Positions 41,489-62,641 of a stretch of 64,000 bases of DNA are shown here, piece after piece. Source of the stretch: Bryobacteraceae bacterium. GTDB taxonomy: Bacteria > Acidobacteriota > Terriglobia > Bryobacterales > Bryobacteraceae. Location: assembly GCA_026129905.1 (NCBI GenBank), contig JAHCHE010000018.1:1-64000 (forward strand), read 5' to 3'. Under the pieces are notes generated by a model, which saw only the letters and a list, made by a program, of their open reading frames with translations, did no database searches and was not told the DNA's origin. Numbering within the stretch: position 1 is the stretch's first letter; each line of letters starts with the position of its first letter. Made by a program: the position numbers and the translations under genes.

Positions 41489-42482
41489 AGTATCCAGTCC
41501 TGTAAGCCGCGCGAAGCGGCGGCAATCCCCTCGGCTGGACCAGTTGCACCCTGACACGTCGATATTTCCCATCTTTCACTTGATTTGTGGGCGTATATCC
41601 AAGGACGTACTGGTTCCGTAATTCGATTCCGATTTTCGCCGCGACGTCGGGCAACTCGTTGACATTCTCCACCGGAAAATGCCGTCCTCCCGTCTGCTCG
41701 GCGAGTTCCTGGAGCAGACCCGGTCCTGCCAGTTCCTCGGCCGTGCGTCCGCGGTGAGCCACCGGTTCAAAGATCCCGATCGCGTAGACCTGCACGTCGG
41801 CTTCGCGAACCAGGTTCTTGATTTCGCTTTGCGTGTACCGGCTGCTGTTGTCGCCCCCGTCGGATAATACCAGAATGGCCTTGCGGGGATTCCGCGCCTT
41901 CTTCATGTGATCCATCGCCAGGTACAGAGCGTCCAACAGCGCCGTGCGTCCCTTCGCGTTGGTGAACGCCAGGCGGTTCTGGATCTCCTCGGTTGCGCTA
42001 GTGAACGCATTGGCCAACTGCGGACGGTCGCTGAATTGGATCAGGAAGAACTCATCCTCCGGGTTGGCGGTTTTGAAGAATTGCGCGGCGGCCTGGCGGG
42101 CCTTCTGGAGCTTCGCGCCCATGCTCCCGCTGACGTCGAAGACCAAGCCGACCGAGAGCGCGGAATCCTCGCTCGAAAACTGCAACACGGTCTGCTCGAT
42201 CTTGTCCTCGAACAGGCGGAAATGGTCCTTGTCCAGACCGGTGACCACCTGGTTAAGCGGGGTCGTGACGGTCACGTTGATCAAAACCAGCGTGGTGTCC
42301 ACCCGGATGTTGGGGGACCGGGTTTGGAGTTCCTCCCGCGCGGGAGGGCGGGTCCTCGGCGTGATCGAAACTTTCGGTTCGTTTGCCGAACTGACGGCGT
42401 CGGCGCTATAGCCAAACGCCCCAAAACATCCTAGCATTGCCGCCGCGAAGCAGGCGGCACGGTGAATTCGAATGCCCGTCAC
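41472..42482 (-). CDS. VWFA-related acidobacterial protein (TIGR03436 type), first of pair
   Basis: 336 residues from GTG 42482, preceded by an AGGGGGA ribosome site; the longer frame from GTG 42527 would begin upstream of the transcription start implied by a TATACT box at 42518-42523 (minus). Signal peptide-like RAACFAAAMLGCFGAFGYSA, then NIRVDTTLVLINVTVT, FRLFEDKIEQTVLQF, MIDAS VFDVSGSMGAK, VLSDGGDNSSRY, and the ending YRRVRVQLVQPRG...AYRTGYYAPSH. Secreted, probably protein- or matrix-binding. The divergent neighbour is kdsB. Confidence 0.85.
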   Translation of the reverse strand: MTGIRIHRAACFAAAMLGCFGAFGYSADAVSSANEPKVSITPRTRPPAREELQTRSPNIRVDTTLVLINVTVTTPLNQVVTGLDKDHFRLFEDKIEQTVLQFSSEDSALSVGLVFDVSGSMGAKLQKARQAAAQFFKTANPEDEFFLIQFSDRPQLANAFTSATEEIQNRLAFTNAKGRTALLDALYLAMDHMKKARNPRKAILVLSDGGDNSSRYTQSEIKNLVREADVQVYAIGIFEPVAHRGRTAEELAGPGLLQELAEQTGGRHFPVENVNELPDVAAKIGIELRNQYVLGYTPTNQVKDGKYRRVRVQLVQPRGLPPLRAAYRTGYYAPSH

Positions 42483-42517
42483 CTTCCGCGTCCCCCTCTT
42501 CTCGTACGCCCGCTTCA

Positions 42518-42523
42518 AGTATA
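42518..42523 (-). promoter_or_regulatory. -10-like box for the VWFA pair
   Basis: TATACT on the minus strand, about 36 bp before the preferred GTG start (42482). There is no good -35 hexamer at 17 bp (GACTCG). The nearby GACTC/GAGTC inverted repeat lies in the same 68-bp divergent region as the kdsB start. Confidence 0.35.
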
Positions 42524-42550
42524 TCACGCGACTCTTTTCGCGAGTCTTTT

Positions 42551-43303
42551 ATGGTAAGATCATTCGTGCCCGCTACGATCGTCGGAATCATTCCGGCGCG
42601 CTACGCTTCCTCGCGATTTCCTGGAAAAGCTCTCGCCCGGCTCGCCGGCAAAACGGTTCTGCAGCACGTGTGGGAACGCGCATCGCAGGCGCGCTACCTG
42701 CGGCAATTGATCGTCGCGACCGACGACGACCGTATCCGCGACGAGGCCCGGTCGTTTGGGGCGAAAGTGGCGATGACGCGGGCCGATCACCTGTCGGGAA
42801 CCGACCGGGTGGCGGAAGCCGCTTCCTCATCCGACGCGGCGATCGTCGTCAACATACAGGGCGACGAACCGCTGATCGATCCGTCGGCGATCGACGCCCT
42901 CGCCGTGGCGCTCGTCGACGACGAGAAGGCCCCGATGGCGACGCTCAAAAAGCGCATCGAGGATCTCCAGGAGTTCACCAACCCGAACGTCGTGAAGGTG
43001 GTTACGGACCGCAACCACTACGCGATTTACTTCTCGCGCTCTCCGATCCCTTACGATCTCAGCGGGGAAGCGATTCACTATAAGCATCCGGGGCTGTACG
43101 CGTACCGGCGCGAATTCCTGCTGGCCTACTCCGACCTTCCGGTCGGGCCTCTGGAGCGCGCCGAGCGACTGGAACAGTTGCGCGCGATCGAGAACGGTCA
43201 CAAGATCCGCGTCGTCGAGACCGAGTATGAGTCGGTGGGCGTGGACACGCCCCAGGATCTGGAAAGAGTCAGGCGACTGATGCAGATTTCACTGGACAGG
43301 TGA
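42551..43303 (+). CDS. kdsB: 3-deoxy-manno-octulosonate cytidylyltransferase (CMP-Kdo synthetase)
   Basis: 250 residues from ATG 42551; GTG 42566 ([13 protein letters not shown]) is an alternative nearer to the usual KdsB length. Signature blocks: [16 protein letters not shown] (nucleotide loop), [105 protein letters not shown]. It activates Kdo with CTP for lipopolysaccharide core assembly. pyrG, which makes CTP, starts 7 bp downstream, followed by kdsA. Confidence 0.95.
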
Positions 43304-48855: not shown

Positions 48856-49248
48856 ATGGCTGACGACAAGTCTGAACTGATCCGGCTGCTGGAAGCCGAA
48901 CTGGACGTGATCGAAAGCGGAGGCTATGGGAGCCCGGCGGGCCAACCCGGCCAGGAGAAGCCGATGTTCTATCACTCCCTGGCGTGCATCAATCACTGGC
49001 TCGTCCCCGGCCACGAACCGGAGTGTCATGACGATTGCGTCCTGCTTCCGTGGGTGCCGGAGCAGCACAAGTCCGAAGCGCTGCCGTGCCACTTCATTCC
49101 GCTTAACCCCTCCGGCGACACCGTGAAGTCCATCGAGCAGAAGGGCAGCCGGGAACGCATGGAAGAGGAAGTCAAACGCTGGCTGCGCGCGACGATCAAG
49201 AAACTGAAGGAGGAGCAGGCATCCGGCCTCCCAGAGGTTAAGTATTAA
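48856..49248 (+). CDS. Cys/His-rich protein preceding the chelatase genes
   Basis: 130 residues; ATG 48856 follows GGGAGG. A helical N-terminus (SELIRLLEAELDVIESGG), a middle with FYHSLACINHWLVPGHEPECHDDC and LPCHF (four Cys, several His, metal-binding pattern; listed in blocks), and a charged helical C-terminus. No named family. Its stop overlaps the only feasible start of the BchI-like gene, so the two are translationally linked. It could be a metal carrier or accessory to the chelatase, which is inference. Confidence 0.65.
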   Translation: MADDKSELIRLLEAELDVIESGGYGSPAGQPGQEKPMFYHSLACINHWLVPGHEPECHDDCVLLPWVPEQHKSEALPCHFIPLNPSGDTVKSIEQKGSRERMEEEVKRWLRATIKKLKEEQASGLPEVKY

Positions 49249-50314
49249 GCCGCCACTCCATCCAGCGCCTTTCCGCCACGCCTACCCGTTCTCCGCCATT
49301 GTCGGGCAGGAGGAAACGAAGCTCGCGCTCATCCTCAATCTCGTCGAGCCTTACCTCGGCGGCGTGTTGATTATGGGGCATCGCGGAACCGGCAAATCGA
49401 CGGCCGTCCGGGCGCTCGCCGAACTCCTCCCGCCGATTCGCAAGGTCAAGGGATGCCTTTACGGGTGCGATCCCGACAATGCCGCCGAGCACTGCTCGGA
49501 GTGCGCCGCCCGGCTGAACGGGCGCGCACGGCTGCCCGTTCAACTCGGCCCCGTGCCTGTAGTCGACCTGCCTCTCGGCGCCACGGAAGACCGTGTTTGC
49601 GGGACCCTCGATATCGAGCGCGCGCTGACCCGGGGGGAAAAGGCGTTTGAACCCGGCCTGCTGGCGCGGGCCAACCGCGGCTTTCTCTACATCGACGAGG
49701 TCAACCTCCTGGAACACTACCTGGTTGACCTGTTGCTCGATGTCGCCGCCAGCGGGCGCAATATCGTGGAACGCGAAGGTATCAGCGTCAGTCACCCGGC
49801 GCGGTTCGTTCTCGTCGGTTCCGGCAACCCTGAGGAAGGCGAGTTGCGGCCGCAACTGCTGGACCGCTTCGGCCTCCACTGCCGCATTACCACCATCCAA
49901 GACATCGAGGCGCGGGTGGAAATCGTGAAGCGGCGCGAGCGGTTCGAGCGCGATCCCGCGGCGTTTCGACAGGAATGGGAGCCCGAACAGGATGAGCTTC
50001 GCGCGCGAATCGGCCGCGCCCGTAGACTGGTTCGCGATGTTACGGTTTCCGATGAACTGCTCGTCCGCATCGCCGAACTCTGTCTGCGGCTCGGCGTCGA
50101 CGGCCACCGGGGAGAACTCACGATTCTCCGCGCGGCCAAGGCGCAGGCTGCCCTGGAAGGCCGGCGCGACGTCGCGCCCGCGGATCTGCGGCGCGTGGCT
50201 GTCATGGCGCTCCGTCACCGTTTGCGGCGGGATCCCCTGACGGAAATCGACGCTGGGGCCAGAATCGAGAAGGCGTTGGACCGGATCGTCGATCGGAACG
50301 GAGCGGCCGCGTGA
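49244..50314 (+). CDS. bchI: Magnesium chelatase-like AAA+ subunit I
   Basis: 356 residues if initiated at ATT 49244. The conserved N-terminus ([19 protein letters not shown]) lies upstream of the first standard start (GTG 49364). Between the in-frame stop at 49205 and 49364 there is no ATG, GTG or TTG; ATT 49244 has AGAGG 6 bp before it. Walker [10 protein letters not shown] (~45-53), [50 protein letters not shown] (Walker B), [22 protein letters not shown] with sensor and Arg finger. It forms the AAA+ ring with subunit D and supplies ATP energy to metal insertion. GTGA overlap with the next gene. Confidence 0.87.
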
Positions 50315-52104
50315 ACATTCCGCTGGAGATGATCGCCGGTATGACCGAGGCTCGGTTCGCCCTGATGCTCCTGGCGGTCGATCCCGGCCTCAAGGGCGCG
50401 CTAATCGGCGGCGGACCGGGTCGCGCGAAGAGTCTGCTGGCGCGGTCCTTCGCGAGGTTGCTGGCCGGAATGCCGTTTGTCGAAGCGCCGATCGCGGCTA
50501 CCCCGGACCGGCTGGTGGGAGGCCTGGATCTCGAGCGGACGCTCCGGACCGGAAGGCGCTCCCTCGCGGAGGGCCTGATCGCGCGCTCCCACGGCGGTTT
50601 CCTCTATGCCGATAGCGTTAACCTGGCGGACGCGCGGTGGACCCGGACGGTCGCAGCCGCCCTCAATTCCGGCGTTTTGCGGATCGAGCGCGACGGCTTC
50701 AGCGCTGCCCCGCCGGCCGAATTCGCGTTGATCGGAACGTACGATCCGGGCGACGGCGATATCGATTCGCAACTGGCCGATTCGGTGGCAATGCATGTTA
50801 TCGAGGAGGCGCCTCCGGCTTTGTCTGAGCGGCTCCAGGTTCTCTCGCTCGCGGCGCGCCGCGAGACCGGGCCATCCCGGATCGCCGGTGACGACGGCGG
50901 GCTGAGGAACCGGATCGACCGCGCGCGAAGCAGGCTGCCACGCGTGACGGTTGCCCCGGAACAGTACCGCGAACTCAGCGCGGCGGCGCTTCGTCTCGGG
51001 GTCGAGGGTCACCGCGCCGAAATTTTCGCCGTCCGCGTGGCGCGAGCGCACGCCGCCCTGGGGGATCGGGACGCCATCGACGAGCGGGACATCGACGCGG
51101 CCGTGCGCCTTACTCTGGCGCCGCGTGCCAGAACCCGTCCGGATAGCAGCGCAAGCTCCGCCTCCGGCGAGCGGCCGGCGCCGGCAACGGCGCCGAACAA
51201 CCAATCGCGAGACGACCGGCGCATACCGGCCCAAGATGCGCCCGCGCCGGATGAAGCGCTAGGCACGTCACCGCCCGCGAATTCGCCCTCGCGAGTCGCT
51301 CCCTCAGCTCGCCGCCAGAGGACTCGGGCGCAAACGTTGAGTTGGACTCGCGGACGCTACGTCCGCGCCGACACGCGCAAGGCGCCAAAAGTGGCGCTCG
51401 AAGCCACGCTGCTTGCGGCTGCGATTTCCCACGGTCGGAGTAACAATCGGCGGCCGGGCCGTGCGCTTCTGGCGAGGCCCTCGGATTTGCGCTATAAGCA
51501 GTTCCGCGTGGATTCCGGCCTGCTCGTGATCTTCGCGATCGACGCGAGCGGCAGCATGGCCGTCAACCGGATCCATCATGCCAAGGGCGCCGCGCTCCGC
51601 CTCCTCCAGGATGCTTACCGGCGGCGCTTCAGCGTGGCCGTTGTCGCGTTCCGCGGAAATTCCGCCGAGACGCTGCTGGCGCCGACGCGCAGCGCGTCGC
51701 TGGCGAAACGGGCGCTGGACGAAGCCCTGGTCGGCGGAGGGACGCCTCTGGCCGCCGGCATTCGCGAGTCCCTGGAGATCGCCAGGCGCGCGAGGCTTGC
51801 CGGCGGTCCGCCCGCGCTCATGGTTCTGGTCACGGACGGTTGCGCGAACGTAGCCTCCCGCCCTGACGCTCGTGAGGCGGTGTGGGAGGAAATCGAGAGC
51901 CTTGCGGTCGTCGCGCGGCGCGACGAGGTCTCGGCGCTGGTGATCGACACGACCAAGCCTCTGTTTTCGACGGGCGCCGCCGAGCGCCTGGCCAGGTCCC
52001 TGGGCGCCTCGTACGTCCGGCTCCCGCGCGCCGGCGATGCGGCGGTCTATGAATCGGTGGCCGCGGCTGGGGAGATGGTGCGCGGAAGGGCGGCGCCCGC
52101 ATGA
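50311..52104 (+). CDS. bchD: Magnesium chelatase-like subunit D
   Basis: 597 residues from GTG 50311. AAA-like N-terminus (~1-270) with a modified P-loop GGGPGRAKSLLARS and FLYADSVNLADARW, a Pro/Ala/Arg-rich linker (~275-350), and a C-terminal VWFA domain with MIDAS D411-ASGSMAVN, FRGNSAETLLAPTRS, LVGGGTPLAAGI, VLVTDGCAN. This is the normal order of BchD/ChlD, which bridges subunits I and H. Stop and next start overlap by 4 bp (ATGA at 52101-52104). The AAA part is degenerate, as is usual in D subunits. Confidence 0.85.
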   Translation: MNIPLEMIAGMTEARFALMLLAVDPGLKGALIGGGPGRAKSLLARSFARLLAGMPFVEAPIAATPDRLVGGLDLERTLRTGRRSLAEGLIARSHGGFLYADSVNLADARWTRTVAAALNSGVLRIERDGFSAAPPAEFALIGTYDPGDGDIDSQLADSVAMHVIEEAPPALSERLQVLSLAARRETGPSRIAGDDGGLRNRIDRARSRLPRVTVAPEQYRELSAAALRLGVEGHRAEIFAVRVARAHAALGDRDAIDERDIDAAVRLTLAPRARTRPDSSASSASGERPAPATAPNNQSRDDRRIPAQDAPAPDEALGTSPPANSPSRVAPSARRQRTRAQTLSWTRGRYVRADTRKAPKVALEATLLAAAISHGRSNNRRPGRALLARPSDLRYKQFRVDSGLLVIFAIDASGSMAVNRIHHAKGAALRLLQDAYRRRFSVAVVAFRGNSAETLLAPTRSASLAKRALDEALVGGGTPLAAGIRESLEIARRARLAGGPPALMVLVTDGCANVASRPDAREAVWEEIESLAVVARRDEVSALVIDTTKPLFSTGAAERLARSLGASYVRLPRAGDAAVYESVAAAGEMVRGRAAPA

Positions 52105-53810
52105 CCCCGGAGGAACGCGACCGGCTGGTTCTCCGGCTGTACGATAACCTGCTCGATATCGAGCAGCGGCTCATTCCCACCGGCCTCCACGTTTTCGGAC
52201 GCCCTCCTGGCGATGCCGAAGCGGCCGACATGTTGCGCATGGTGGCTTCGTTTGACCGGCCGGAATTCGGAGTCCGTTCTCTGCCGGGGTTGGTGGCTCG
52301 TGGCCTCGGCCTGCCTGCCTATGAAGTCCTGCTCGCCGAGAGCGGCTCTTCCGAATACCGGCTCGCCCAGAGAGAGCGCGTCGAAGCCGTGGTCCGCCTG
52401 GCGATCGAGCGGTTCTTGACCGGCGGCGGAGAAGGCGCCGCGCGGCTGCTGGCCGGGGAAGCAAACGTGCCAGTGGACGAATCTCTCGCCATTTTCCGCC
52501 TGCTCGGAACAATCCGCGAGCAACTAAGGGAAAATGGCGAATTAGACGCGCTTGTTCGAGCGATGAACGGCGAGTACATTGAGCCCGGTCCCGGCGCGGA
52601 TATCGTCCAGAATCCAGGCATTCTGCCCACCGGCCGGAATACCCACGCGGTGAATCCTTACGGCATCCCGTCGGCCGTGGCGTTCCGCCGGGCCGAAGCC
52701 GTAACGGCGTCGCTGCTGAATCGCTTCCTTCAGGAACGGGGCCGCTATCCGGAGGCCATCGGCATGGTGCTGTGGGGCATGGACAACATCAAGACGCAGG
52801 GCGAAGGCGTCGCACAGGCGCTGCGGCTGATCGGCGTTGAGCCCCGGCGGGACGGCATGAATCGCGTCTCGGACATTGAGGTCGTCCCGCTGGACCGGCT
52901 CGGCCGCCCCCGCATCGACGTCGTGATGACGGTTTCCGGCATATTCAGGGATTTATTCGCGCAGACGATGGAACTTCTCGACCGCGCCGTGCGAAAAGTG
53001 GCCGCCATGGACGAACCTCCGGAAATGAATTTCGTGCGGAAACACGCGGAAGCCGGGGCGCGGGAAGACCTTGCCTTCGATGACGCGGCCGCGAGAGTCT
53101 TCTCCAATTCCCCCGGCAGCTACGGAACGAATGTCGATGTCATGGTGGCGGACGGCCAGTGGGACGGGGCGGATGAGATCGGAAAGCTGTTCGTAACGCG
53201 CAAGTGCTTCGCCTACGGCCGCTCGCTCGAAGGGCGCGAGGCGCGGGCGCTGATGGAGAGCGCGCTGTCCCGGGTGGAGGTGACGTATCAGAACGTCGAC
53301 AGCGCCGAAGTGGGCATCACCGACGTCGATCACTATTTCGAATACCTCGGCGGACTGACCAAAGCGGTGCAAAACCGTACGGGCGAACGGCCCGACGTCT
53401 ACCTCTCGGATTCGCTCGCTCCGCTTGGGAAGGTCCGTTCGCTCGAGGAACTGGTACGCCTGGAGACGCGAACCAAGACCCTTAACCCGAAATGGTACGA
53501 AGGCATGCTGAAGCACGGCTTCCGGGGCGTGGCCGAGATCGAGCGCCGGGTGGCGAACACGTTTGGCTGGAGCGCGACCGCGGGCGCCGTGGACGACTGG
53601 ATCTACGACGAAATCGCCAGCACCTACTTCCTGGACGAGGCGATGTTTGAGCGCTTGCGCTCGCTGAACGTCCACTCGGCCAGAAGCCTCGCGGCGCGGC
53701 TCATCGAGGCGGAAGGGAGAGGTTTCTGGGCCGCGGACGAGGCGGTTTCCCAGCGGCTGCGTTCCCTGTTCGCGGACCTCGAGGACCAACTGGAGGGCCT
53801 CGCCCGCTGA
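52101..53810 (+). CDS. bchH: C-terminal half of a split BchH-like chelatase large subunit
   Basis: 569 residues. The sequence corresponds to the C-terminal part of BchH/CobN-type subunits: LLDIEQRLIPTGLHVFGRPP at its start (mid-protein in fused BchH), [102 protein letters not shown] (in blocks), LNPKWYEGMLKHGF and a final helical FGWSATAGAVDDW. These blocks are intact, so it is not a decayed gene. Its stop TGA shares one base with the start of the gene encoding the N-terminal half, so the order is C-half then N-half. They probably assemble into one porphyrin-binding subunit. Confidence 0.85.
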   Translation: MTPEERDRLVLRLYDNLLDIEQRLIPTGLHVFGRPPGDAEAADMLRMVASFDRPEFGVRSLPGLVARGLGLPAYEVLLAESGSSEYRLAQRERVEAVVRLAIERFLTGGGEGAARLLAGEANVPVDESLAIFRLLGTIREQLRENGELDALVRAMNGEYIEPGPGADIVQNPGILPTGRNTHAVNPYGIPSAVAFRRAEAVTASLLNRFLQERGRYPEAIGMVLWGMDNIKTQGEGVAQALRLIGVEPRRDGMNRVSDIEVVPLDRLGRPRIDVVMTVSGIFRDLFAQTMELLDRAVRKVAAMDEPPEMNFVRKHAEAGAREDLAFDDAAARVFSNSPGSYGTNVDVMVADGQWDGADEIGKLFVTRKCFAYGRSLEGREARALMESALSRVEVTYQNVDSAEVGITDVDHYFEYLGGLTKAVQNRTGERPDVYLSDSLAPLGKVRSLEELVRLETRTKTLNPKWYEGMLKHGFRGVAEIERRVANTFGWSATAGAVDDWIYDEIASTYFLDEAMFERLRSLNVHSARSLAARLIEAEGRGFWAADEAVSQRLRSLFADLEDQLEGLAR

Positions 53811-55951
53811 TGGTCTCCGTCACCGTCCTGTTCGTCGGATCGAGCCTGTTGGCTTCGCTGCGCCGCGCCGAGCGCGAGATTAACGAACGCTACGGCGTCG
53901 CCGCGAAGATCCGCGCGCACAACGCCACGCTTCCGTTCGCCGGGCAACAGTGGACGTCAGTGGAGCGGGATCTCGCCGCCTCCGACATCGTCTTCGTCAT
54001 TCACGTCACCGACAGCGAGAATGCTCTCCAGATCGCAGGCGCGCTCGATCGCTACCGGGAGCGGCATCGCGCGGTCGTCGTCATCAACTGTCTGCGGGAC
54101 CTGATGCTGCGCACGCGCATGGGCAAGCTCGATCTCACAGGCCGCTCCACCGCTGCCGCGCCGGGCGTGGTCCGGCGCGCCGGCGCCTGGATGGCGAGCT
54201 ACGCCCGAGGCAGGACGAAACAACACAACGGCCGATCGCCGGAGCGGTACCTGAAGTATTTCGCCCACGTTCCCGCCATTCTGCGGATCATCCCGGCCAG
54301 GGGCAGGCTTCTCGATTCCAAACACTACCTCACGCTGTTCAGCTACTTTCTCCAGCCGACCCCCGCGAACGTCCGGTCGATGCTGCTCTACGCGATCAAG
54401 CATTACGCGGCGGTGGACGGCCGGAGGATCAAGCTCGATCCGCCCGAAACCAGGCCGGTGGTGGGCATCTATCACCCGGATGCCCCGTCGGTCTTCCCCA
54501 CTTTCAAAGCCTACAGGCGATGGTACGAGAGCCGGCCCGCGCGTCCGCGCCTCGATCCGAATCGCTCGATCGGCATGTTGCTGATGCGCACCCAGATCGT
54601 CAGCGGAGCGTGCCGCCATTACGATTACCTCATCCGGGCAATCGAAAGCGAGGGCCTGCCGGTAATTCCGGCGCTTTCGACCTTCATGGACAACCGGGAA
54701 GCGTGTCGCGCGTTTCTCGTCAATCCGGACGACCAGTCCCCGCGCGTAGGCCAGTTGCTCTCCCTGACCGGCTTTAGTTTCGTCGGCGGTCCGGCGATGA
54801 ACGACAGCAAGGCCGCCGTGCAGTTTCTGAAAGGGCTGAACCGGCCATTCCATTCGGTGGTCAACCTGGAAGCGCAGCGGATCGAAGATTGGATCGAGAA
54901 CCCGATCGGGCTGAATCCCGTGCAGACGGCGATGCAGGTCGCAATACCGGAGATCGACGGGGCCACGGACCCTATTGTCTTTGGAGGCGCGCCCGCCGCT
55001 GGCGACCAGCCGGAGCCGATCGAAGAACGATGCCGCCGGATCGCGCGCCGGCTGGCGCGATGGGACCGCCTGCGAACGGCGCCTAAAGCGGACATTCGCC
55101 TGGCAGTCGTTCTCTATTGCTTCCCGCCGAACCGCGGCAACCTAGGCACGGCCGCCGACCTCGACGTGTTCCCCAGCTTGTTCGACATCCTGCGCCGGCT
55201 GAAGATGGAGGGCTACGGAATCGACCTGCCCGCCGGCCCCGATGCCCTGCGAGAAATGCTGCTCGACGGAAGCCGGTCGGCTGGCGACGCTCCGGCCGCG
55301 ATCGCGCATCGCCTTCCCGCCGATGACTACTACCGGCTCTGTCCGTATGTCGAGGAAATCGAGCTCGAGTGGGGCCCGGCCCCCGGCCGCATCAATTCGC
55401 GAGGGCGTGACATCATGATCCACGGCGTCCGGCTTGGCGATGCATTCATCGGCGTGCAGCCGACGTTCGGCTATGAAGGCGATCCGATGCGGCTCCTGAT
55501 GGCCAAAGGCAGCGCTCCGCATCACGGCTTCATGGGCTTCTACACATTCCTCCGCGAGGTGTTTCGGGCGGACGCCGTGATTCATTTCGGGACGCACGGC
55601 GCGCTGGAATTTATGCCCGGCAAGCAGGCGGGGCTTTCCGGCCGTTGTTGGCCGGACCGCCTCATCGGCGATTTCCCGAATATCTATGTGTACAGCGTCA
55701 ACAATCCGTCGGAAGGGAGCATCGCGAAGAGGCGCTCCTACGCGGAGTTAATCTCGTACCTCACGCCCCCGGTGGAGAACGCCGGCTTATACAAGGAACT
55801 CGCCTCGTTGAAGGAACTGATTGCCGCGTACCGCCAGGCGGCCGACGAGCGGCAGCGCGAATACCTGTTCGAGGCCATCAGGGAAAAGGCCGCGGACCTC
55901 CATCTCGAGCCGTCGTCGGAAGGCATCGATGAACGTCTTCCCGTTCCCTGA
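53810..55951 (+). CDS. bchH: N-terminal half of a split BchH-like chelatase large subunit
   Basis: 713 residues from ATG 53810. It begins with the DUF3479-like domain of BchH rather than CobN: SDIVFVIHVTDSENALQI, LRTRMGKLDLTGRS, YLKYFAHVPAILRIIPARG, YLTLFSYFLQPTPANVRSML. It goes on with VVGIYHPDAPSVFPTF, IGMLLMRTQIVSGACRHYDYLIRAIE (blocks), AVVLYCFPPNRGNLGTAADLDVF, GVQPTFGYEGDPMRLL, DAVIHFGTHGALEFMPGKQAGLSG, NIYVYSVNNPSEGSIAKRRSYAELISYLTPP (blocks). It ends at FEAIREKAADLHLEPSS, exactly where the other half takes up the sequence. Together 1282 residues, similar to fused BchH. Confidence 0.87.
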   Translation: MVSVTVLFVGSSLLASLRRAEREINERYGVAAKIRAHNATLPFAGQQWTSVERDLAASDIVFVIHVTDSENALQIAGALDRYRERHRAVVVINCLRDLMLRTRMGKLDLTGRSTAAAPGVVRRAGAWMASYARGRTKQHNGRSPERYLKYFAHVPAILRIIPARGRLLDSKHYLTLFSYFLQPTPANVRSMLLYAIKHYAAVDGRRIKLDPPETRPVVGIYHPDAPSVFPTFKAYRRWYESRPARPRLDPNRSIGMLLMRTQIVSGACRHYDYLIRAIESEGLPVIPALSTFMDNREACRAFLVNPDDQSPRVGQLLSLTGFSFVGGPAMNDSKAAVQFLKGLNRPFHSVVNLEAQRIEDWIENPIGLNPVQTAMQVAIPEIDGATDPIVFGGAPAAGDQPEPIEERCRRIARRLARWDRLRTAPKADIRLAVVLYCFPPNRGNLGTAADLDVFPSLFDILRRLKMEGYGIDLPAGPDALREMLLDGSRSAGDAPAAIAHRLPADDYYRLCPYVEEIELEWGPAPGRINSRGRDIMIHGVRLGDAFIGVQPTFGYEGDPMRLLMAKGSAPHHGFMGFYTFLREVFRADAVIHFGTHGALEFMPGKQAGLSGRCWPDRLIGDFPNIYVYSVNNPSEGSIAKRRSYAELISYLTPPVENAGLYKELASLKELIAAYRQAADERQREYLFEAIREKAADLHLEPSSEGIDERLPVP

Positions 55952-55972: not shown

Positions 55973-56593
55973 TCAGAAGTCGATATCGGAGAGCAGTTGC
56001 GACGGCCGGAGACTGAAGGCGCGCGCGATGGCCAGCAGGCTCTCCATGCTCGGCAAGTGAACGCCGCGTTCGATCGATGAGATCTGCGAGACGCTGAGTC
56101 GCGTCGCATCGGCCAGGTCTTTTAGCGACCAGTCGCGCTCGGCGCGCAGCAACCGCACCCGGTGTCCCAGGCTCTGACGGAGGCGGTCCGGGTCGTTGCG
56201 GCCGAGGTCGTAAGCCTCCACCGCGTTCTTAAGCGTTTGCCGGAGCTGCGCCAGCGAGAACGGCTTCACCAGGTAGTCGAAAACTTTCAGCTTGAACGTG
56301 GCGCGCATGTCCTCGAGCGAGGGATAGCCGGTCACGATGATCACGCAGAGCTTCGGCCACCGCCCCACGAGTTGCTCGAGCACTTTGTCTCCGCGGAACT
56401 CGCCCATTTTGATGTCGAGCAGAACGATGTCGGGGCTACGCTTCTGGCAGGCTTCGAACAGGTCCTCCGGGTGAGCGAAGGTGCGGACGGAGTAGACGCT
56501 CTCGTCCTTCAGGAAGTCTTCGACGTAGTTGAGGAAGTCGTAGTCGTCGTCAAGCACGGCTACATCAATCGGCAATGTGGGAACAGCGTTCAT
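55973..56593 (-). CDS. Response regulator with REC and XRE-type HTH domains
   Basis: 206 residues from ATG 56593. REC ~8-125 with acidic pocket VAVLDDDYDF, phospho-acceptor Asp about residue 59 in IVLLDIKMGE, VIIVTGYPS and YLVKPFSLAQL. Then an XRE/HTH_3 domain ~143-198: LGHRVRLLRAERDWSLKDLA, RLSVSQISSIERGVHLPSMESLLAIA (blocks). A REC joined to a Cro/CI-type HTH is less usual than OmpR/NarL/Fis types. It is convergent with the chelatase operon and divergent from the Rieske operon (287 bp apart), so it could control the latter. The kinase is not next to it. Confidence 0.85.
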   Translation of the reverse strand: MNAVPTLPIDVAVLDDDYDFLNYVEDFLKDESVYSVRTFAHPEDLFEACQKRSPDIVLLDIKMGEFRGDKVLEQLVGRWPKLCVIIVTGYPSLEDMRATFKLKVFDYLVKPFSLAQLRQTLKNAVEAYDLGRNDPDRLRQSLGHRVRLLRAERDWSLKDLADATRLSVSQISSIERGVHLPSMESLLAIARAFSLRPSQLLSDIDF

Positions 56594-56792: not shown

Positions 56793-56821
56793 TTGACACC
56801 GGGACATGAAAAATATACAAT
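56793..56821 (+). promoter_or_regulatory. Consensus-like sigma-70 promoter of the Rieske/cytochrome b operon
   Basis: TTGACA (56793-56798) and TACAAT (56816-56821) with exactly 17 bp between. Transcription would begin near 56828, 52 bases before ATG 56880. This rules out the longer open frame that begins with the same TTG at 56793. Confidence 0.8.
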
Positions 56822-56879
56822 TTGGTACACACCGGGCAACCGGGCCGCACGATACTGGGAAGGAGTTCGTTCAGAGCCT

Positions 56880-57482
56880 ATGGAGAGGACGTCATCGCCC
56901 CCTGGGGCAGGCGATTCTGTGTCCAAGCCAGCCGCGCCGCCTAAAGCGAAGGCCGCGGGGGCGAAGCCGGCAGCGGACAATGGCGGACCGAAGATCTCGG
57001 AACCTCGCAAGTTGCACCGGCGCTTCGTGTGGACCTCGATCGGCGGATTCCTCGGCGTGAACTTCTTGATGTTCCTCCGGTTTTTCTTTCCGCGCACGCT
57101 CTTTGAGCCCAGTTCCCGGTTCCGCATCGGCTCCCCGTCGGATTTTCCGATGGGCGTCGATGAGCGATTCAAGCAGTCGCATCGGATTTGGGTGGTGAGG
57201 CAGCCGGACAAGCTGTTCGTGCTTCACGCGCGCTGCACCCATCTGGGATGCACTCCCAACTGGGTGGAAACCGAGAACAAGTTCAAGTGCCCCTGCCACG
57301 GCAGTGGATACGATATCGAAGGAATCAACTTCGAAGGGCCGGCGCCGCGCCCGATGGACCGCACCTACGTCGAGTTGGATGCCGAAGGACAGATCGTGGT
57401 GGATACCAGCCGGCTTTACGAATGCCCGCCCGGTGCGCCGTGCCAGTTCGAGACCGAGAACTCGTACCTCGAAGTCGCCTAG
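56880..57482 (+). CDS. Rieske [2Fe-2S] protein of a cytochrome bc/b6f-type complex
   Basis: 200 residues from ATG 56880. A basic, Pro/Ala-rich cytoplasmic start, one membrane anchor ~47-66 ([21 protein letters not shown], split), then the cluster-binding domain: C119-T-H121-LGC and C137-P-C-H140-GSGYD, with the extra Cys pair that forms the usual disulfide. It moves electrons from quinol at cytochrome b to the c-type acceptor. First gene of the bc operon, 31 bp before the cytochrome b gene. AGGAG at 56861 is rather far from ATG (14 bp), so the start is fairly but not completely sure. Confidence 0.92.
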
Positions 57483-57513: not shown

Positions 57514-58398
57514 ATGGAGCCGGATAACAAACAGGAAAAAAGCGGCGGCTCGGCGATCATCGACCGCGCCCGCGGCGAGATCAAAGAGCTAACCGAGGAT
57601 CTCAAGAAGCCGCAGGAGACGCAGCTCTGGAAGTCCGTCTTTCGGGTCAAGCACGAGCGGACCGATCCGCGTACTCGCGCCCTGGGCGTGTTGTCCAACG
57701 TTTTCCTCCACCTGCACCCGGCCCGAATCAACCGTGACGCGGTCCGTTACAGCTTCACCTGGGGCATGGGCGGCATCACCTTCTACCTGTTCCTGGTGCT
57801 TACATTTACCGGCGTCCTGTTGATGTTTTACTATCATCCGACCAAGATTCAGGCCTTCCGCGACATACTCTTCCTCGAACACGACGTGCCTTTCGGTAAG
57901 CTGCTTCGCAACATGCACCGCTGGGCGGCTCACCTGATGATCATCACCGTCTGGCTCCACATGTTCCGAGTGGTGCTTACCGGCTCTTATAAGAAACCGC
58001 GCGAGTTCAACTGGTGCGTCGGCGTTATCTTACTGGTATTTACTCTGTTGCTGTCGTTTACCGGGTACCTTCTGCCGGACGATCAACTGGGATTCTGGGC
58101 CGTCACGGTGGGCACGAATATGGCTCGGGCGACGCCGCTTCTGGGACACGAAGGGCCGTTCGGCGTGGAACTTGGGATGACCGCGTTCAACGACGTCCGC
58201 TTCGCGCTGCTCGGCGGCTCGATCGTCGACGCGAATGCGTTGTTGCGGGCTTACATCTGGCATTGCATCGCCATCCCGCTCATCGTGTCGGTGTTCCTGG
58301 GCGTGCACTTCTGGCGAGTGCGAAAAGATGGCGGCATCTCCGGACCAGCCCCCGTGATGTTGGAGTCGGAGATCAAGCCGGTGAGAAGCTTGCGGTAG
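57514..58398 (+). CDS. Cytochrome b6-type (N-terminal half of cytochrome b)
   Basis: 294 residues, SD GGGGAGAG upstream. A ~75-residue charged N-terminal extension, then four membrane helices. Heme b ligands: H135 and H149 (MHRWAAHLMIITVWLHMF) and H250 and H265 (YIWHCIAIPLIVSVFLGVHF, split). The spacing 13/14 between the His pairs is that of cytochrome b6 rather than mitochondrial cytochrome b. There is no Cys where b6f complexes attach heme c-i. With the next gene (subunit IV) it makes the split cytochrome b of a quinol-cytochrome c reductase. Confidence 0.93.
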   Translation: MEPDNKQEKSGGSAIIDRARGEIKELTEDLKKPQETQLWKSVFRVKHERTDPRTRALGVLSNVFLHLHPARINRDAVRYSFTWGMGGITFYLFLVLTFTGVLLMFYYHPTKIQAFRDILFLEHDVPFGKLLRNMHRWAAHLMIITVWLHMFRVVLTGSYKKPREFNWCVGVILLVFTLLLSFTGYLLPDDQLGFWAVTVGTNMARATPLLGHEGPFGVELGMTAFNDVRFALLGGSIVDANALLRAYIWHCIAIPLIVSVFLGVHFWRVRKDGGISGPAPVMLESEIKPVRSLR

Positions 58399-58452
58399 GA
58401 AAGAACGAGAGCGGACGGGTTGGTAGCCCGTCCGGACGGGCAAGGGGGGAGT

Positions 58453-59388
58453 ATGGACTGGGCGCAACTCTGGGAAATCGTCTCGCTGCCGGACAACATT
58501 CCGATTGTGGCCCTCGTTGTCCTGGTTCCGTTCTACACCTGGTATGGCCTGCGGCAGGCAAGGGCTACAGACCGCCTCATCGGCGAACTGGAAGCCAGCC
58601 CTGAACTCGCCAAGACGCACCACCGCAAGATCCATCCCTTCAAGCCCGGCTGGGCGCGGGAATTACAGGTTTGGCCGTATCTGCTGCGCGTCGAGTTTCT
58701 CGCCGCCGTCGTGGTGACCCTGGTTCTCATGGTGTGGTCGATCACCCTGGATGCGCCGCTCGAAGAACCGGCGAACCCTAATCACACGATGAACCCTTCG
58801 AAAGCGCCCTGGTATTTCGTCGGGCTTCAGGAAATGCTGGTGTACTTCGACCCCTGGTTCGCGGGCGTCGTACTTCCTACCCTGATCATTGTCGGCTTAA
58901 TGGTATTCCCATACATCGATACGAATCCGCTTGGCATTGGTTACTACACAATTCGACAACGCGCGGTGGCGCTCTGGGGGTACGGCGTCGGCTTCTTCCT
59001 TTGGCTGGTGCTGATCTTTATCGGGACCTTTGTGCGCGGGCCCGGCTGGATGTGGTTTTGGCCCGGCCAGACATGGGACCACACGCGCGTCATCTACGAG
59101 GTGAACCGCAATCTGTCCGACATCGTCGGAATCACGAACCCGTGGCTTGCCGCGATCGTCGGAATCATTGCGGTCGGCGTGTTCTACGCCGGAACTGGAT
59201 GGGGCATTCATAAGCTGGTGACGCGCACGCCCCTGGACCGGAAGATCTTTGAGCGTACCAACTTGTTGCAATACTTGACGTTTCAGTTCTTCGCGATCAC
59301 GATTCTCGTCGCATTGCCGGCAAAGATGTTGTTAAGGTTACTGTTCCGGATTCAGTACGTCTTAGTAACTCCGTGGTTTAACATCTGA
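58453..59388 (+). CDS. Subunit IV-like C-terminal half of cytochrome b
   Basis: 311 residues from ATG 58453, preceded by GGGGGGAG. About six membrane helices: one N-terminal (~10-26), then subunit IV-like. The quinol-site motif that is PEWY in b6f is here KAPWYFVGLQEMLVYFDPW, so the acidic residue is replaced. Other blocks: PNHTMNPSKAP, VVLPTLIIVGLMVFPYID, RAVALWGYGVGFFLW. The extra C-terminal helices make it longer than plant subunit IV (~160). Follows cytochrome b6 by 54 bp; the cytochrome c gene is 67 bp on. Confidence 0.9.
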   Translation: MDWAQLWEIVSLPDNIPIVALVVLVPFYTWYGLRQARATDRLIGELEASPELAKTHHRKIHPFKPGWARELQVWPYLLRVEFLAAVVVTLVLMVWSITLDAPLEEPANPNHTMNPSKAPWYFVGLQEMLVYFDPWFAGVVLPTLIIVGLMVFPYIDTNPLGIGYYTIRQRAVALWGYGVGFFLWLVLIFIGTFVRGPGWMWFWPGQTWDHTRVIYEVNRNLSDIVGITNPWLAAIVGIIAVGVFYAGTGWGIHKLVTRTPLDRKIFERTNLLQYLTFQFFAITILVALPAKMLLRLLFRIQYVLVTPWFNI

Positions 59389-59455: not shown

Positions 59456-62400
59456 ATGGCCAGCGATAACGAGCAAGCGACGAAACCGGGCGTCGAGCCG
59501 GATCCCATCGCCGACAAGTCGCTGAGTTTCCCTCTGCTGGTGCTGTCCGGTCTCCTGTTCCTCTCCCTGGTCTGGGCGCTCTACGACGAACTGCTGGCGG
59601 CGCGTCCCTGGAAACAATACCAGCAGGAGTTCGTGAGCCGGTATACCAACTTTCTCAAGAAGCTCGGACCGCAACAGGCGGCGCTCGAAAAGCAGGTGCT
59701 CGCTTCGCCGGAGTTCCAGAAGATCGAGGAGCAGCGGAAAGCGGCCGAGGCCGCGGTCGCTCCGCGGGTGCGCGAGATCGACGCCGAACTCCAGAACATC
59801 CGGGCGGAACTGGCGGCCATCAAAATGCCCTTCCAGGACGCCCGCGCGCGAGTCGCCGCCCTGACGTACGAGCTGGATCACGCCGGCGGCGAAGGAGCGA
59901 AAAACAGCATCCGCCGCAATATCGAGAAAGTGAAAAGCGGCCCGTTCCGGGTCTCGCTGCCGGGCGCCGATGGAGGTCCTAAGCCGCTCACCTTCGACGA
60001 CCTCGAACAGCGGTTCAACGACCTCAAAACACGCGAATCCCAGCTTAACGCCGAGCGCACCCGGATCACCGCCGAAAGCCGTGACCTGACCCGCGCGCGA
60101 AACCAGTTCCTGGCCGATCGGATGCCCGGCCTTGGGCCGCAGCAGATTGAAGGGTTGCTGCGGAAGATGGACGGATTCACCGTAGAAATCAAGCAGATCC
60201 ACGTCGAGGAGGCCGGCCTCATCGACCGGTGCGAATCCTGCCACGCGGGCATCCGCGAACCGGCCGTGATCACCGCTGCCGACATGGGAGGCAACCAGGT
60301 ATTCGTCAGCCATCCCAACAAGCCCTTGCTCGCGCTTCATGATCCCGAACGGTTCGGCTGCACGCCGTGCCACAACGGCAACGGCCTTGCGACCTCCAGC
60401 GCGACAGCCGCGCATGGCGCCTACAAGCACTGGCTCTGGCCGATGTTCGACAAGGAGAACAGCGAGGCCGGCTGTATCCAGTGCCATTTCACTGATCGCG
60501 TGCTGGAACAGGCTCCCGTCCTCACCCGCGGCCGCGACCTCTTCGAGTTGAAGGGCTGCATCGGTTGCCACCGGTACGAGGGTTTCGACCGCGAATCCGA
60601 CGCCCTTGCCAATTTGCGCAAGGAAACCCAGGGGCTCGAAATGAGGCGGCAGGAATCGCGCCTCGAAATGGACCGCGAGATCAAGAGGGGCGATGAGGCC
60701 TCCACCAACGAGGAGGCGCAGGCGCATTACGCGCTGGCGGAGAACCTGCGCGTTTCCGCGAGCAATCTCGACGCCCGCCTCGAGTCGCTCGAACAACAGG
60801 CGAAATTCCTCATGCAGGACCAGAAGAAGGTCGGGCCGAACCTCAAGGACGTCCGTCTGAAGCTGCGAAAGGAATGGATTCCCGTTTGGCTCAAGGACCC
60901 GCAAGCCTTCCGGCCGGGAACCAAAATGCCCACCTTCCGGCTGACGGACGCGGAAATCGAAGCGCTTTCGGCCTTCGTCTGGCAATCCGGTCTGGAAGGG
61001 CCGAGGCCCGCTCCGCAACCGGCCGGAAATGCCGGCAGGGGAAAAGAGTTGTTCGAGACGCGCGGTTGTCTTGCCTGCCATTCCATCGGAGAAGGCGACA
61101 GCCACCTCGGCGGCGAGTTCGCCGCGAATTTGTCCCGGCTCGGCGAGAAAGCAAGCTACGACTACATCGTCAGGTGGGTCCACGATCCGCGCGAGCGGAC
61201 GCGCCCCTACTGCCCTCACGAGCGGCGCGACCTCGGTCCCGAGGACTACGCCCGCCATGGACTGCCGTTCGTTTTTGGCGACGACCATTCCGCATGTCCC
61301 AACGACGGCCACCAACTGCAGGTCCAGAACATGACCGTGATGCCCAGCTTCCGCCTCACCACGGAAGAATCCCGCGACATCGCGGCGTACCTCACGGGCC
61401 TCAAGCACAACGATGCGTCCTACCCGGCCAACGCCGGCTACATGGATAATCGCGACCTCTTCGAACAGGGACGGACGCTGGCGGGACGCTACGGCTGCGG
61501 GAGTTGTCACGAGATCCAGGGATTGGAGGATGCGCCCCGCATCGGCACGGAACTGACGAAGGAAGCCAGCAAGCCGATGGAGCAGTTGGATTTCGGCCTA
61601 CTCGAGCACCAGGCGAAAAAAGAGGGCTGGTACACCCACAAGGGCTTCTTCGTCCGCAAGATCAAGTCGCCCTCGCTGTTCGACCAGGGCCGGGAGAAAC
61701 CGCCGGAAGAACAGTTGCGCATGCCGAACATCCATGTCACCGAGGACGACGTCCGCGCGCTGACGACGTTGTTGGTCGGCAGCATCGACTCTCCGTTTTT
61801 CGGCAAGTTCCGCGTCATCCCGGAACAGTTCCGCTACATCCCGACCGACCAGCAGCGAGACATTCAGGAAGGCTGGTGGCTCATCAAGAAGTACAACTGC
61901 ATGGGTTGTCACAACGTGCAGATTGGCCAGAAGTCCGTCGTCAGCGGTTTGCCGAGATATCAGGACCCGGACTGGAAGGAACAGGTGCCGCCGACGCTGG
62001 TGCAGGAGGGCGCCCGCGTCAACCCCGACTGGCTGACGCGATTCCTCGCGAATCCCGCCCTCAGCGAACGCGACGCGAATCGCAACGGCGTCCGAACCTA
62101 CCTCCATATCCGCATGCCGACCTTCCATTTTTCGCCAAATGAAATCAGGACGCTGGTCCGATTCTTTGAGGCGCTGGCGGGACAGCCCAGTCCGCACATC
62201 CCGACCAGGCTTGAACCGCTTGACGACCGCGAACGGCTGATGGCACGCGCGTTGTTCTCGTCGAAAGCCGCGCCCTGCCTGAAGTGTCACCTGGTGGGTA
62301 ATCCCTCGCACGATCGCTTCGCCACGGCGCCGAACTTCCTTCAGGCCGCTGAGCGCCTCAAACCCGGTTGGACAACGCGGTGGATGATCGATCCGCAGGC

Positions 62401-62641
62401 GATCAGCCCCGGCACGGCGATGCCCTCGGGGCTGTTCCGCCAGGACGGCGCTCATTGGGTGTTCGCCGGTCCAACGCCCGACATATTCAAAGGTTACTCG
62501 CGGGATCACGTGCAGTTATTAGTGCGGTATATGTTCCAACTTACGGCCGAAGAGCAGAGGCAGCTTATACAACAGTTGCCCTCAACGGCGGAGGTCAGAC
62601 AGGAGAAGCCTCTCGTGGCCATGGAGAGGAGCGGGCCGTAG
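59456..62641 (+). CDS. Large membrane-anchored octaheme cytochrome c with coiled coils
   Basis: 1061 residues. An N-terminal anchor ~24-43 (FPLLVLSGLLFLSLVWALYD), then a long coiled coil ~65-250, followed by eight CXXCH sites: CESCH 259, CTPCH 302, CIQCH 340, CIGCH 368, CLACH 538, CGSCH 681, CMGCH 815, CLKCH 941. A second coiled-coil insert lies ~375-450. The last five modules look like mono-heme cytochrome c domains (MPTFRLTDAEIEALSAFVW, MPSFRLTTEESRDIAAYL, MPTFHFSPNEIRTLVRFFEAL) with distal Met. It would take the place of cytochrome c1/f in the complex and pass electrons outward. Confidence 0.9.
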   Translation: MASDNEQATKPGVEPDPIADKSLSFPLLVLSGLLFLSLVWALYDELLAARPWKQYQQEFVSRYTNFLKKLGPQQAALEKQVLASPEFQKIEEQRKAAEAAVAPRVREIDAELQNIRAELAAIKMPFQDARARVAALTYELDHAGGEGAKNSIRRNIEKVKSGPFRVSLPGADGGPKPLTFDDLEQRFNDLKTRESQLNAERTRITAESRDLTRARNQFLADRMPGLGPQQIEGLLRKMDGFTVEIKQIHVEEAGLIDRCESCHAGIREPAVITAADMGGNQVFVSHPNKPLLALHDPERFGCTPCHNGNGLATSSATAAHGAYKHWLWPMFDKENSEAGCIQCHFTDRVLEQAPVLTRGRDLFELKGCIGCHRYEGFDRESDALANLRKETQGLEMRRQESRLEMDREIKRGDEASTNEEAQAHYALAENLRVSASNLDARLESLEQQAKFLMQDQKKVGPNLKDVRLKLRKEWIPVWLKDPQAFRPGTKMPTFRLTDAEIEALSAFVWQSGLEGPRPAPQPAGNAGRGKELFETRGCLACHSIGEGDSHLGGEFAANLSRLGEKASYDYIVRWVHDPRERTRPYCPHERRDLGPEDYARHGLPFVFGDDHSACPNDGHQLQVQNMTVMPSFRLTTEESRDIAAYLTGLKHNDASYPANAGYMDNRDLFEQGRTLAGRYGCGSCHEIQGLEDAPRIGTELTKEASKPMEQLDFGLLEHQAKKEGWYTHKGFFVRKIKSPSLFDQGREKPPEEQLRMPNIHVTEDDVRALTTLLVGSIDSPFFGKFRVIPEQFRYIPTDQQRDIQEGWWLIKKYNCMGCHNVQIGQKSVVSGLPRYQDPDWKEQVPPTLVQEGARVNPDWLTRFLANPALSERDANRNGVRTYLHIRMPTFHFSPNEIRTLVRFFEALAGQPSPHIPTRLEPLDDRERLMARALFSSKAAPCLKCHLVGNPSHDRFATAPNFLQAAERLKPGWTTRWMIDPQAISPGTAMPSGLFRQDGAHWVFAGPTPDIFKGYSRDHVQLLVRYMFQLTAEEQRQLIQQLPSTAEVRQEKPLVAMERSGP

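Follow-up and report, generated by a model that had tools for sequence, protein, structure and literature searches.

A BchH-type chelatase H subunit encoded as two genes in swapped order in Acidobacteria without the phototrophy markers tested

In the first enzyme specific to chlorophyll synthesis, the H subunit (BchH or ChlH) forms the catalytic body; it is typically one polypeptide of about 1200-1300 residues. We describe a locus that departs from this one-polypeptide form. The locus lies in a 64,000-nucleotide stretch from a Bryobacteraceae bacterium (phylum Acidobacteriota; assembly GCA_026129905.1, contig JAHCHE010000018.1, positions 1 to 64,000 of the forward strand), referred to below as the window. 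It encodes a class I chelatase whose H subunit consists of two genes in reversed order. The arrangement is conserved, its carriers form a single clade and retain the residues checked, and the host genomes lack the phototrophy markers tested. A literature search of titles, abstracts and passages found no description of a split or swapped BchH, nor of an orphan chelatase in non-phototrophic Acidobacteria.

Passages of published work on related enzymes provide points of comparison. In one cyanobacterial enzyme, the ChlD domain that carries the MIDAS motif binds ChlH (PMC6604950). In HmuS, the His of the motif HFG(T/A)HG faces the His and Glu of LSLDHxxEFMGG across the central cavity, and the haem site that defines this protein is Met-79/His-254 (PMC12583661).

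We found that the chelatase genes of the window lie head-to-tail on the plus strand and overlap, in the order I, D, C half, N half:

49364..50314, plus strand: I subunit (AAA+ ATPase); TIGR02030, 486 bits, above cut-off
50311..52104, plus strand: D subunit, 597 amino acids, AAA+ and von Willebrand domain, MIDAS motif DASGS
52101..53810, plus strand: C-terminal half of the BchH-type H subunit (class I chelatase), 569 amino acids, with D410-H411-E414 and the LGG motif
53810..55951, plus strand: N-terminal half of the H subunit, 713 amino acids, with the DUF3479 head and H592, H596, E600 and E635

The D subunit matched TIGR02031 along its whole length (458 bits, below the curated cut-off of 499.55), and its gene overlaps the C-half gene by 4 bases. 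The junction of the C half and the N half is TGATG, a one-base overlap.

The two halves together cover the whole BchH profile. In a profile search with TIGR02025 (1271 positions), the C half matched positions 698-1270 and the N half positions 4-694, and both matched stretches were free of stops. Singly, the halves scored 712 and 673 bits, below the 829-bit cut-off, as expected for halves. The Pfam family CobN-Mg_chel was divided alike (551-1088 in the C half, 2-540 in the N half), with the DUF3479 head in the N half. In alignments with chain 4zhj of ChlH, residues 86-741 were matched by the N half, starting at its own residue 44, and residues 761-1350 by the C half. About 19 residues of the chain separate the two matches, and the break lies among them. 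The initial annotation, made from the sequence alone, had described two genes carrying the C-terminal and N-terminal parts of BchH with a one-base overlap, and these measurements bear it out. It had also named an intact bchH elsewhere, with these two genes unexpressed, as a finding that would overturn its interpretation. These two genes are the only PF02514 matches in the window's genome (8.57 Mb, 98% complete, 4.4% contamination), and none of the eight split-H genomes of the phylum sample described below has another.

The start of the I gene is unusual. Between 49208 and 49364 of the window there is no ATG, GTG or TTG start that would cover the first 28 positions of the family. The frame is open upstream to 49208, and family similarity begins at approximately 49283. 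Translation probably starts at a non-standard codon, such as the ATT at 49244, which overlaps the 3' end of the preceding gene; otherwise there is a local sequence error.

We found that the swapped order was constant, across independent assemblies, in the split loci with both halves on the same contig. We used the best 80 of 577 relatives of the N half from named genomes (loci with L numbers; genomes have G numbers and families f numbers). All nine acidobacterial loci among them (9/9) encode C then N as two genes. In 70 of the other 71 loci the N part precedes the C part on one strand; for the remaining one, L111, the contig holds no C part. Of these 70 N-first loci, 68 have a single frame, L099 carries two complete copies, and in L071 the frame changes within the C part. 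A search of 396 genomes of the phylum (E <= 1e-110) found split halves in 8 and an intact BchH above the family cut-off in 3. One or both halves were present in 38 of 119 genomes of family f27, and both were present in 7/7 genomes of family f16. With the window's genome and G192, these make 47 split genomes. The halves share a contig in 37 and lie on two contigs in 4, and a single half was found in 6. In 37/37 genomes where the halves share a contig, the C half came first, on the same strand. No match spanning both halves (a fused BchH) was found in the 47 genomes at the search threshold used, and fused, duplicated or N-first forms were not seen among them. The named loci and the sampled genomes overlap (L038 and G539 are apparently the same contig).

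The two proteins come from separate genes, since the halves can be apart. In G318 they are on different contigs (482 and 156 kb), and the 7 kb that precede the N half contain no C half. Elsewhere, other genes lie between the halves: a caspase-like gene (L038 4548-5912), a YhgA-like transposase (G398; L172 10696-11907) and a small gene (L221, G537). Identity to the window among the other split loci compared was 61-68% for the C half and 54-63% for the N half, except for the ragged N half of G398. A plasmid search returned 159 records, all below 60% identity, and the listed ones were annotated as ordinary BchH or CobN.

A frameshift or an assembly join, another explanation that would have undone the initial annotation, is excluded by the constant order (37/37) together with the distribution of stops. 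Internal stops had been flagged in several N-half matches. When 34 loci were re-aligned, stops occurred in only 3 of 63 half alignments and always fell among the last 14 aligned positions. A suspected D-H fusion in G530, which has a long open frame, proved to be two open reading frames separated by a TGA stop. The reversed order proposed by the initial annotation is thus real. Its circular-permutation wording does not hold for a single protein, as we found no fused C-N chain. Tandem duplication with loss of alternate halves is a possible origin; no fused or duplicated intermediate that would bear on it was seen.

Phylogenetic analysis indicated that both halves belong to one subfamily. We made separate quick trees of the C and N halves (56 sequences each), with support given only as the Shimodaira-Hasegawa-like approximate likelihood ratio (SH-aLRT). 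A combined tree of 38 rows held both halves plus one cyanobacterial ChlH (a single long row) and was rooted on CobN-like sequences; 19 further rows were omitted from it, partly long and partly near-copies, two of them split sequences. The incomplete CobN-like sequences L006, L019 and L029 were left out of the separate C and N trees and of the residue comparisons. The 17 split loci formed one clade in the C tree (99), the N tree (100) and the combined tree (100), and this clade sided with BchH, apart from the CobN-like sequences. The N and C trees agree, which rules out an origin of the halves in different subfamilies, an outcome that the initial annotation had named as refuting its interpretation. 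A second clade of the combined tree (98) held BchH of Chlorobiota, Chloroflexota, phototroph-like Acidobacteria, Gemmatimonadota, Myxococcota and Pseudomonadota. The branching order among the split, ChlH and BchH clades was not resolved in this tree. L099_fusedB, a second, divergent Chlorobiota H subunit on a long branch, fell outside all three, and we excluded it from the BchH group in residue comparisons and from the approximately unbiased (AU) test. That test rejected a grouping of the split clade with BchH of the phototroph-like Acidobacteria (p 0.009).

We found that the proposed active-site residues are retained and are divided between the two chains, with H596, E600 and E635 in the N half and D410, H411 and E414 in the C half. 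In the N half, which contains the motifs HFGTHG and NNPSE, H572, H592, H596, E600 and E635 are invariant in 17/17 split sequences and likewise in 22 BchH sequences. The C half likewise keeps D410, H411 and E414 in 17/17 split sequences, within the motif DVDHYFEYLGG, whose CobN-like counterpart is DSDDYMQFHGG. At position 411, BchH has H in 15/22 (the rest N, Q or T) and CobN-like sequences have D in 14/16; at position 414, BchH has E in 7 and D in 15. Seven plus seven positions are fixed differently between the split and BchH sequences. The two active-site glutamates are altered in the sequences of PDB entries 6ytj and 6yt0, as read from printed alignments. We transferred the cavity residues of HmuS to the window's numbering by motif. 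According to passages on HmuS, which acts on haem, it too has H in the motif matching the region of position 411 (PMC12583661). An invariant H411, shared with most BchH and with HmuS and replaced by D in most CobN-like sequences, points to a porphyrin over a corrin.

The hosts of the split H subunit lack the markers tested for a pathway that would employ it. We searched the eight split-H genomes of the phylum sample together with G156, G183, G225, G399 and G086; PsaA/B was sought in the eight and in G156, G183 and G225 only. BchM and BchL above cut-off were each found in 0/8 split-H genomes and in G156, G183 and G225, which from their gene set we take to be Chloracidobacterium. Matches below cut-off to BchL, and methyltransferase matches below the BchM cut-off, occurred in 13/13 genomes. 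PsaA/B was found in 0/8, with a short partial match of 30 bits in G156, G183 and G225; type-II genes (PF00124) were not searched. CbiC (PF02570) was found in 0/8 and was present in G399 and in 7/14 named control genomes. No CobN or second H subunit was found (0/8). Without BchM, BchL, PsaA/B, CbiC or a second CobN or H protein in these eight genomes, neither a chlorophyll pathway nor a corrin ring, as judged by these markers, explains the enzyme. These host conclusions rest on the markers named, with type-II reaction centre genes, BchE, AcsF and HemQ outside the search. The initial annotation thus stands as to a split, reversed, BchH-type H subunit of one subfamily, but it overlooked that the hosts are non-phototrophic by the markers tested, and with BchM, BchL, PsaA/B and CbiC at 0/8 the data do not support reading the protein as the BchH of a bacteriochlorophyll pathway.

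Two side observations concern these genomes. G086, G156, G183 and G225 contain a CobN-like protein and no CbiC match. Ferrochelatase (PF00762) is present in 7/8 split-H genomes, so that replacement of ferrochelatase as a general role is rejected; the remaining genome, G192 (L168; 99% complete), has a split H and no PF00762 match.

Based on these results we favour, as the probable explanation, a two-chain class I chelatase of non-phototrophs that uses ATP to insert a divalent metal into a porphyrin. In such an enzyme, the I and D proteins (an I-D fusion in some relatives) would act as a motor powered by ATP, and the two halves of H would join without a covalent bond to give the usual H body. 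With an assembly like that of ChlH, the central cavity would be lined by HFGTHG and NNPSE from the N half and DVDHYFEYLGG from the C half, and it would be present only when the chains meet. ATP hydrolysis by I/D would then drive insertion of the metal into a substrate, presumably a porphyrin, held between the H chains. Mg would be the first choice of metal, with Zn or another possible; kinship and the DxDH motif make Mg into protoporphyrin IX our first guess.

The genes around the two halves are partly conserved. In 12/17 loci, I/D genes precede the C half; some relatives have a single I-D fusion of about 660-740 amino acids. Around the chelatase genes of the window are these candidate members of the system:

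48856..49248, plus strand: candidate 130-amino-acid protein, no Pfam match, before the I gene
55973..56593, minus strand: candidate helix-turn-helix response regulator, located between the chelatase genes and the bc operon
56793..57482, plus strand: candidate Rieske protein of the bc operon (Pfam match made on the L034 relative)
57514..58398, plus strand: candidate cytochrome b6-type protein of the bc operon (Pfam match made on the L034 relative)
58420..59388, plus strand: candidate cytochrome b C-terminal protein, subunit IV-type (Pfam match made on the L034 relative, slightly below cut-off)
59456..62641, plus strand: candidate large multihaem cytochrome c, same operon

The operon for Rieske, cytochrome b6-type and cytochrome b C-terminal proteins is downstream in 8/17 loci (window, L033, L034, L036, L038, G135, G192 and G441). 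A related cytochrome b is present in 40/61 genomes (the window's own and 60 relatives). Other neighbours recur in some loci. The family of 130-135 amino acids that is upstream of the I gene in the window is directly downstream of the N half in L033 (6503-6910). Genes for cytochrome c maturation (ccm) lie near the halves in G441, and clustering places relatives of them in G135 and G256. A glutaredoxin-like gene is found within approximately 3 kb of the N half, on the opposite strand, in L034, L035, L036, L038 and L169 (Pfam on L035 and L169). A relative of the window's gene at 42437-43303 directly precedes the bc operon in G040 and G045 (same order); in the window the distance is 13.5 kb, with the chelatase genes between, an arrangement that points to insertion or relocation.

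The window's cytochrome b groups with those of L033 and G192 and not with its own family, and L033 and G192 are also the window's neighbours in the N-half and combined H trees. Because the chelatase and bc genes are physically linked, a single transfer of the whole segment explains the shared grouping, which shows co-inheritance and is not proof of function. The tetranucleotide pattern of the window agrees with ten other contigs of its genome at 0.78-0.86 (0.69-0.91 among those contigs) and with the loci of four same-family genomes at 0.72-0.81, and does not fit the L033 and G192 loci (0.44 and 0.28). Horizontal transfer is likelier than a wrong host assignment.

The bc operon neighbourhood suggests a role around cytochromes, and we speculate that the product of the chelatase may serve the adjoining cytochrome bc or c-type cytochrome system. 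A bolder idea, which we regard as doubtful, is that a non-photosynthetic branch of Mg-chelatase supplies a non-haem metallo-porphyrin to the b6-type bc complex or its c-type cytochromes. The depth of such a branch would be similar to that of the divergence between ChlH and anoxygenic-phototroph BchH. If this were true, ATP-driven chelation of the Mg type had, or keeps, a use beyond photosynthesis, and respiration has a tetrapyrrole cofactor still to be discovered.

Several observations weigh against an ATP-driven, porphyrin-metallating two-chain enzyme tied to the cytochromes. There is no I/D gene nearby in 5/17 loci (G398 is cut by a contig end; the rest of these genomes was not searched). 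The bc operon was not seen in 9/17 loci, some of them too short to tell, and in 7/7 split-H-free genomes of the window's family, order and class, examined from among the 40 with a related cytochrome b, it occurs without adjoining chelatase genes. E600 and E635 are also found in CobN-like sequences (16/16), so these residues do not identify the metal. The hosts could contain an unrecognised methyltransferase, given the weak matches in 13/13 genomes. The predicted structures of the halves were poor, with a mean predicted local distance difference test (pLDDT) score of 52 and 61 (10 sequences each). Assembly of the halves and ATP-driven activity are what we infer from sequence, and passages on the homologue HmuS describe removal of a metal without ATP (PMC12583661).

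That homologue is the model for what we consider an unlikely alternative, a haem de-chelatase that, like HmuS of Bacteroidota, takes iron out of haem. H411 and E414 fit the HmuS motif LSLDHxxEFMGG, and several loci have haem-related neighbours (ccm genes, the bc complex). However, I/D motor genes accompany the halves in most loci, whereas HmuS needs no ATP, which speaks against this alternative at the level of gene context, and searches of PDB sequences favoured ChlH (486 and 503 bits) over HmuS (235 and 152 bits). An aerobic cobaltochelatase of vitamin B12 synthesis, replacing CobN, is quite improbable. The split H is the sole PF02514 protein in the eight genomes, and passages of one study propose that I/D proteins serve CobN in some species (PMC9227772). 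But the split family has DVDHYFEYLGG and does not share the CobN-like DSDDYMQFHGG, and CbiC is absent from all eight, with the caveat that G086, G156, G183 and G225 have a CobN-like protein and likewise no CbiC.

Loss of function would explain the patchy occurrence (8/396 phylum genomes) and the lack of known downstream enzymes among the markers searched, but we consider a decaying relic of a lost chlorophyll pathway very improbable. The sequences remain similar to the window (the ragged N half of G398 excepted), 17/17 split sequences retain the catalytic residues that were checked, the few stops are confined to the aligned ends, and all genomes of f16 keep both halves. That the enzyme is instead an ordinary Mg-chelatase of the (bacterio)chlorophyll pathway in a phototrophic acidobacterium, only split, is nearly refuted. 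Its nearest family is BchH/ChlH, and the phylum does contain three phototroph-like genomes (f38) with intact BchH, BchM, BchL and a type-I reaction centre match. But the eight split-H genomes yielded no BchM or BchL above cut-off and no PsaA/B (PF00124 outside the search), and the split clade lies outside that of the anoxygenic-phototroph BchH. An assembly or binning artefact might be suspected in a draft genome with some contamination, whose window cytochrome b groups with other lineages; as the cause of the gene order it is refuted by the identical order in every single-contig genome. The window contig very probably belongs to its assigned host, as its tetranucleotide pattern fits its own genome, though four same-family loci reach similar values.

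The two-chain chelatase that we favour would matter in several ways. A natural two-chain H subunit with its cavity at the interface would ease experimental dissection of a large enzyme. Its conserved presence in Acidobacteria without the tested chlorophyll and corrin markers raises the question of which metallo-porphyrin the hosts make. If this is a Mg-porphyrin, the hosts would offer a living, non-phototrophic side branch on which ideas about how the chlorophyll pathway arose (Granick order, ghost lineages) could be tested.

Among known systems, the genomic setting resembles that described in passages on Binatota, with bch-like genes without bchM and no reaction centre detected (PMC8262859). 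According to the same source, Binatota add homologues of bchE and bchLNB. The split-H genomes are unlike Binatota in having no BchL above cut-off (BchE was not searched) and a chelatase that is split and swapped. CobN (TIGR02257; PDB 7c6o, 9uk9) belongs to the same superfamily. However, CobN-like proteins match the BchH profile only from approximately position 157 on and lack the head part, which the split H has; they mostly have D in place of H411, and the split-H hosts lack the corrin marker CbiC. HmuS (PDB 9d26) is also of this superfamily and shares the two motifs that hold the cavity His pair. Passages on HmuS describe one chain with predicted membrane helices, ATP independence and a Met-rich insertion (PMC12583661), whereas the split system has I/D genes. 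The split H differs from BchH/ChlH (TIGR02025; PDB 4zhj) in its two chains, reversed gene order, separate clade, and hosts without BchM or BchL above cut-off. It is like BchH/ChlH in its homology along both halves, DUF3479 head, HFGTHG, E600 and E635, in a DxDHYxEYLGG motif as found in one Chlorobiota BchH, and in its adjoining I and D partners.

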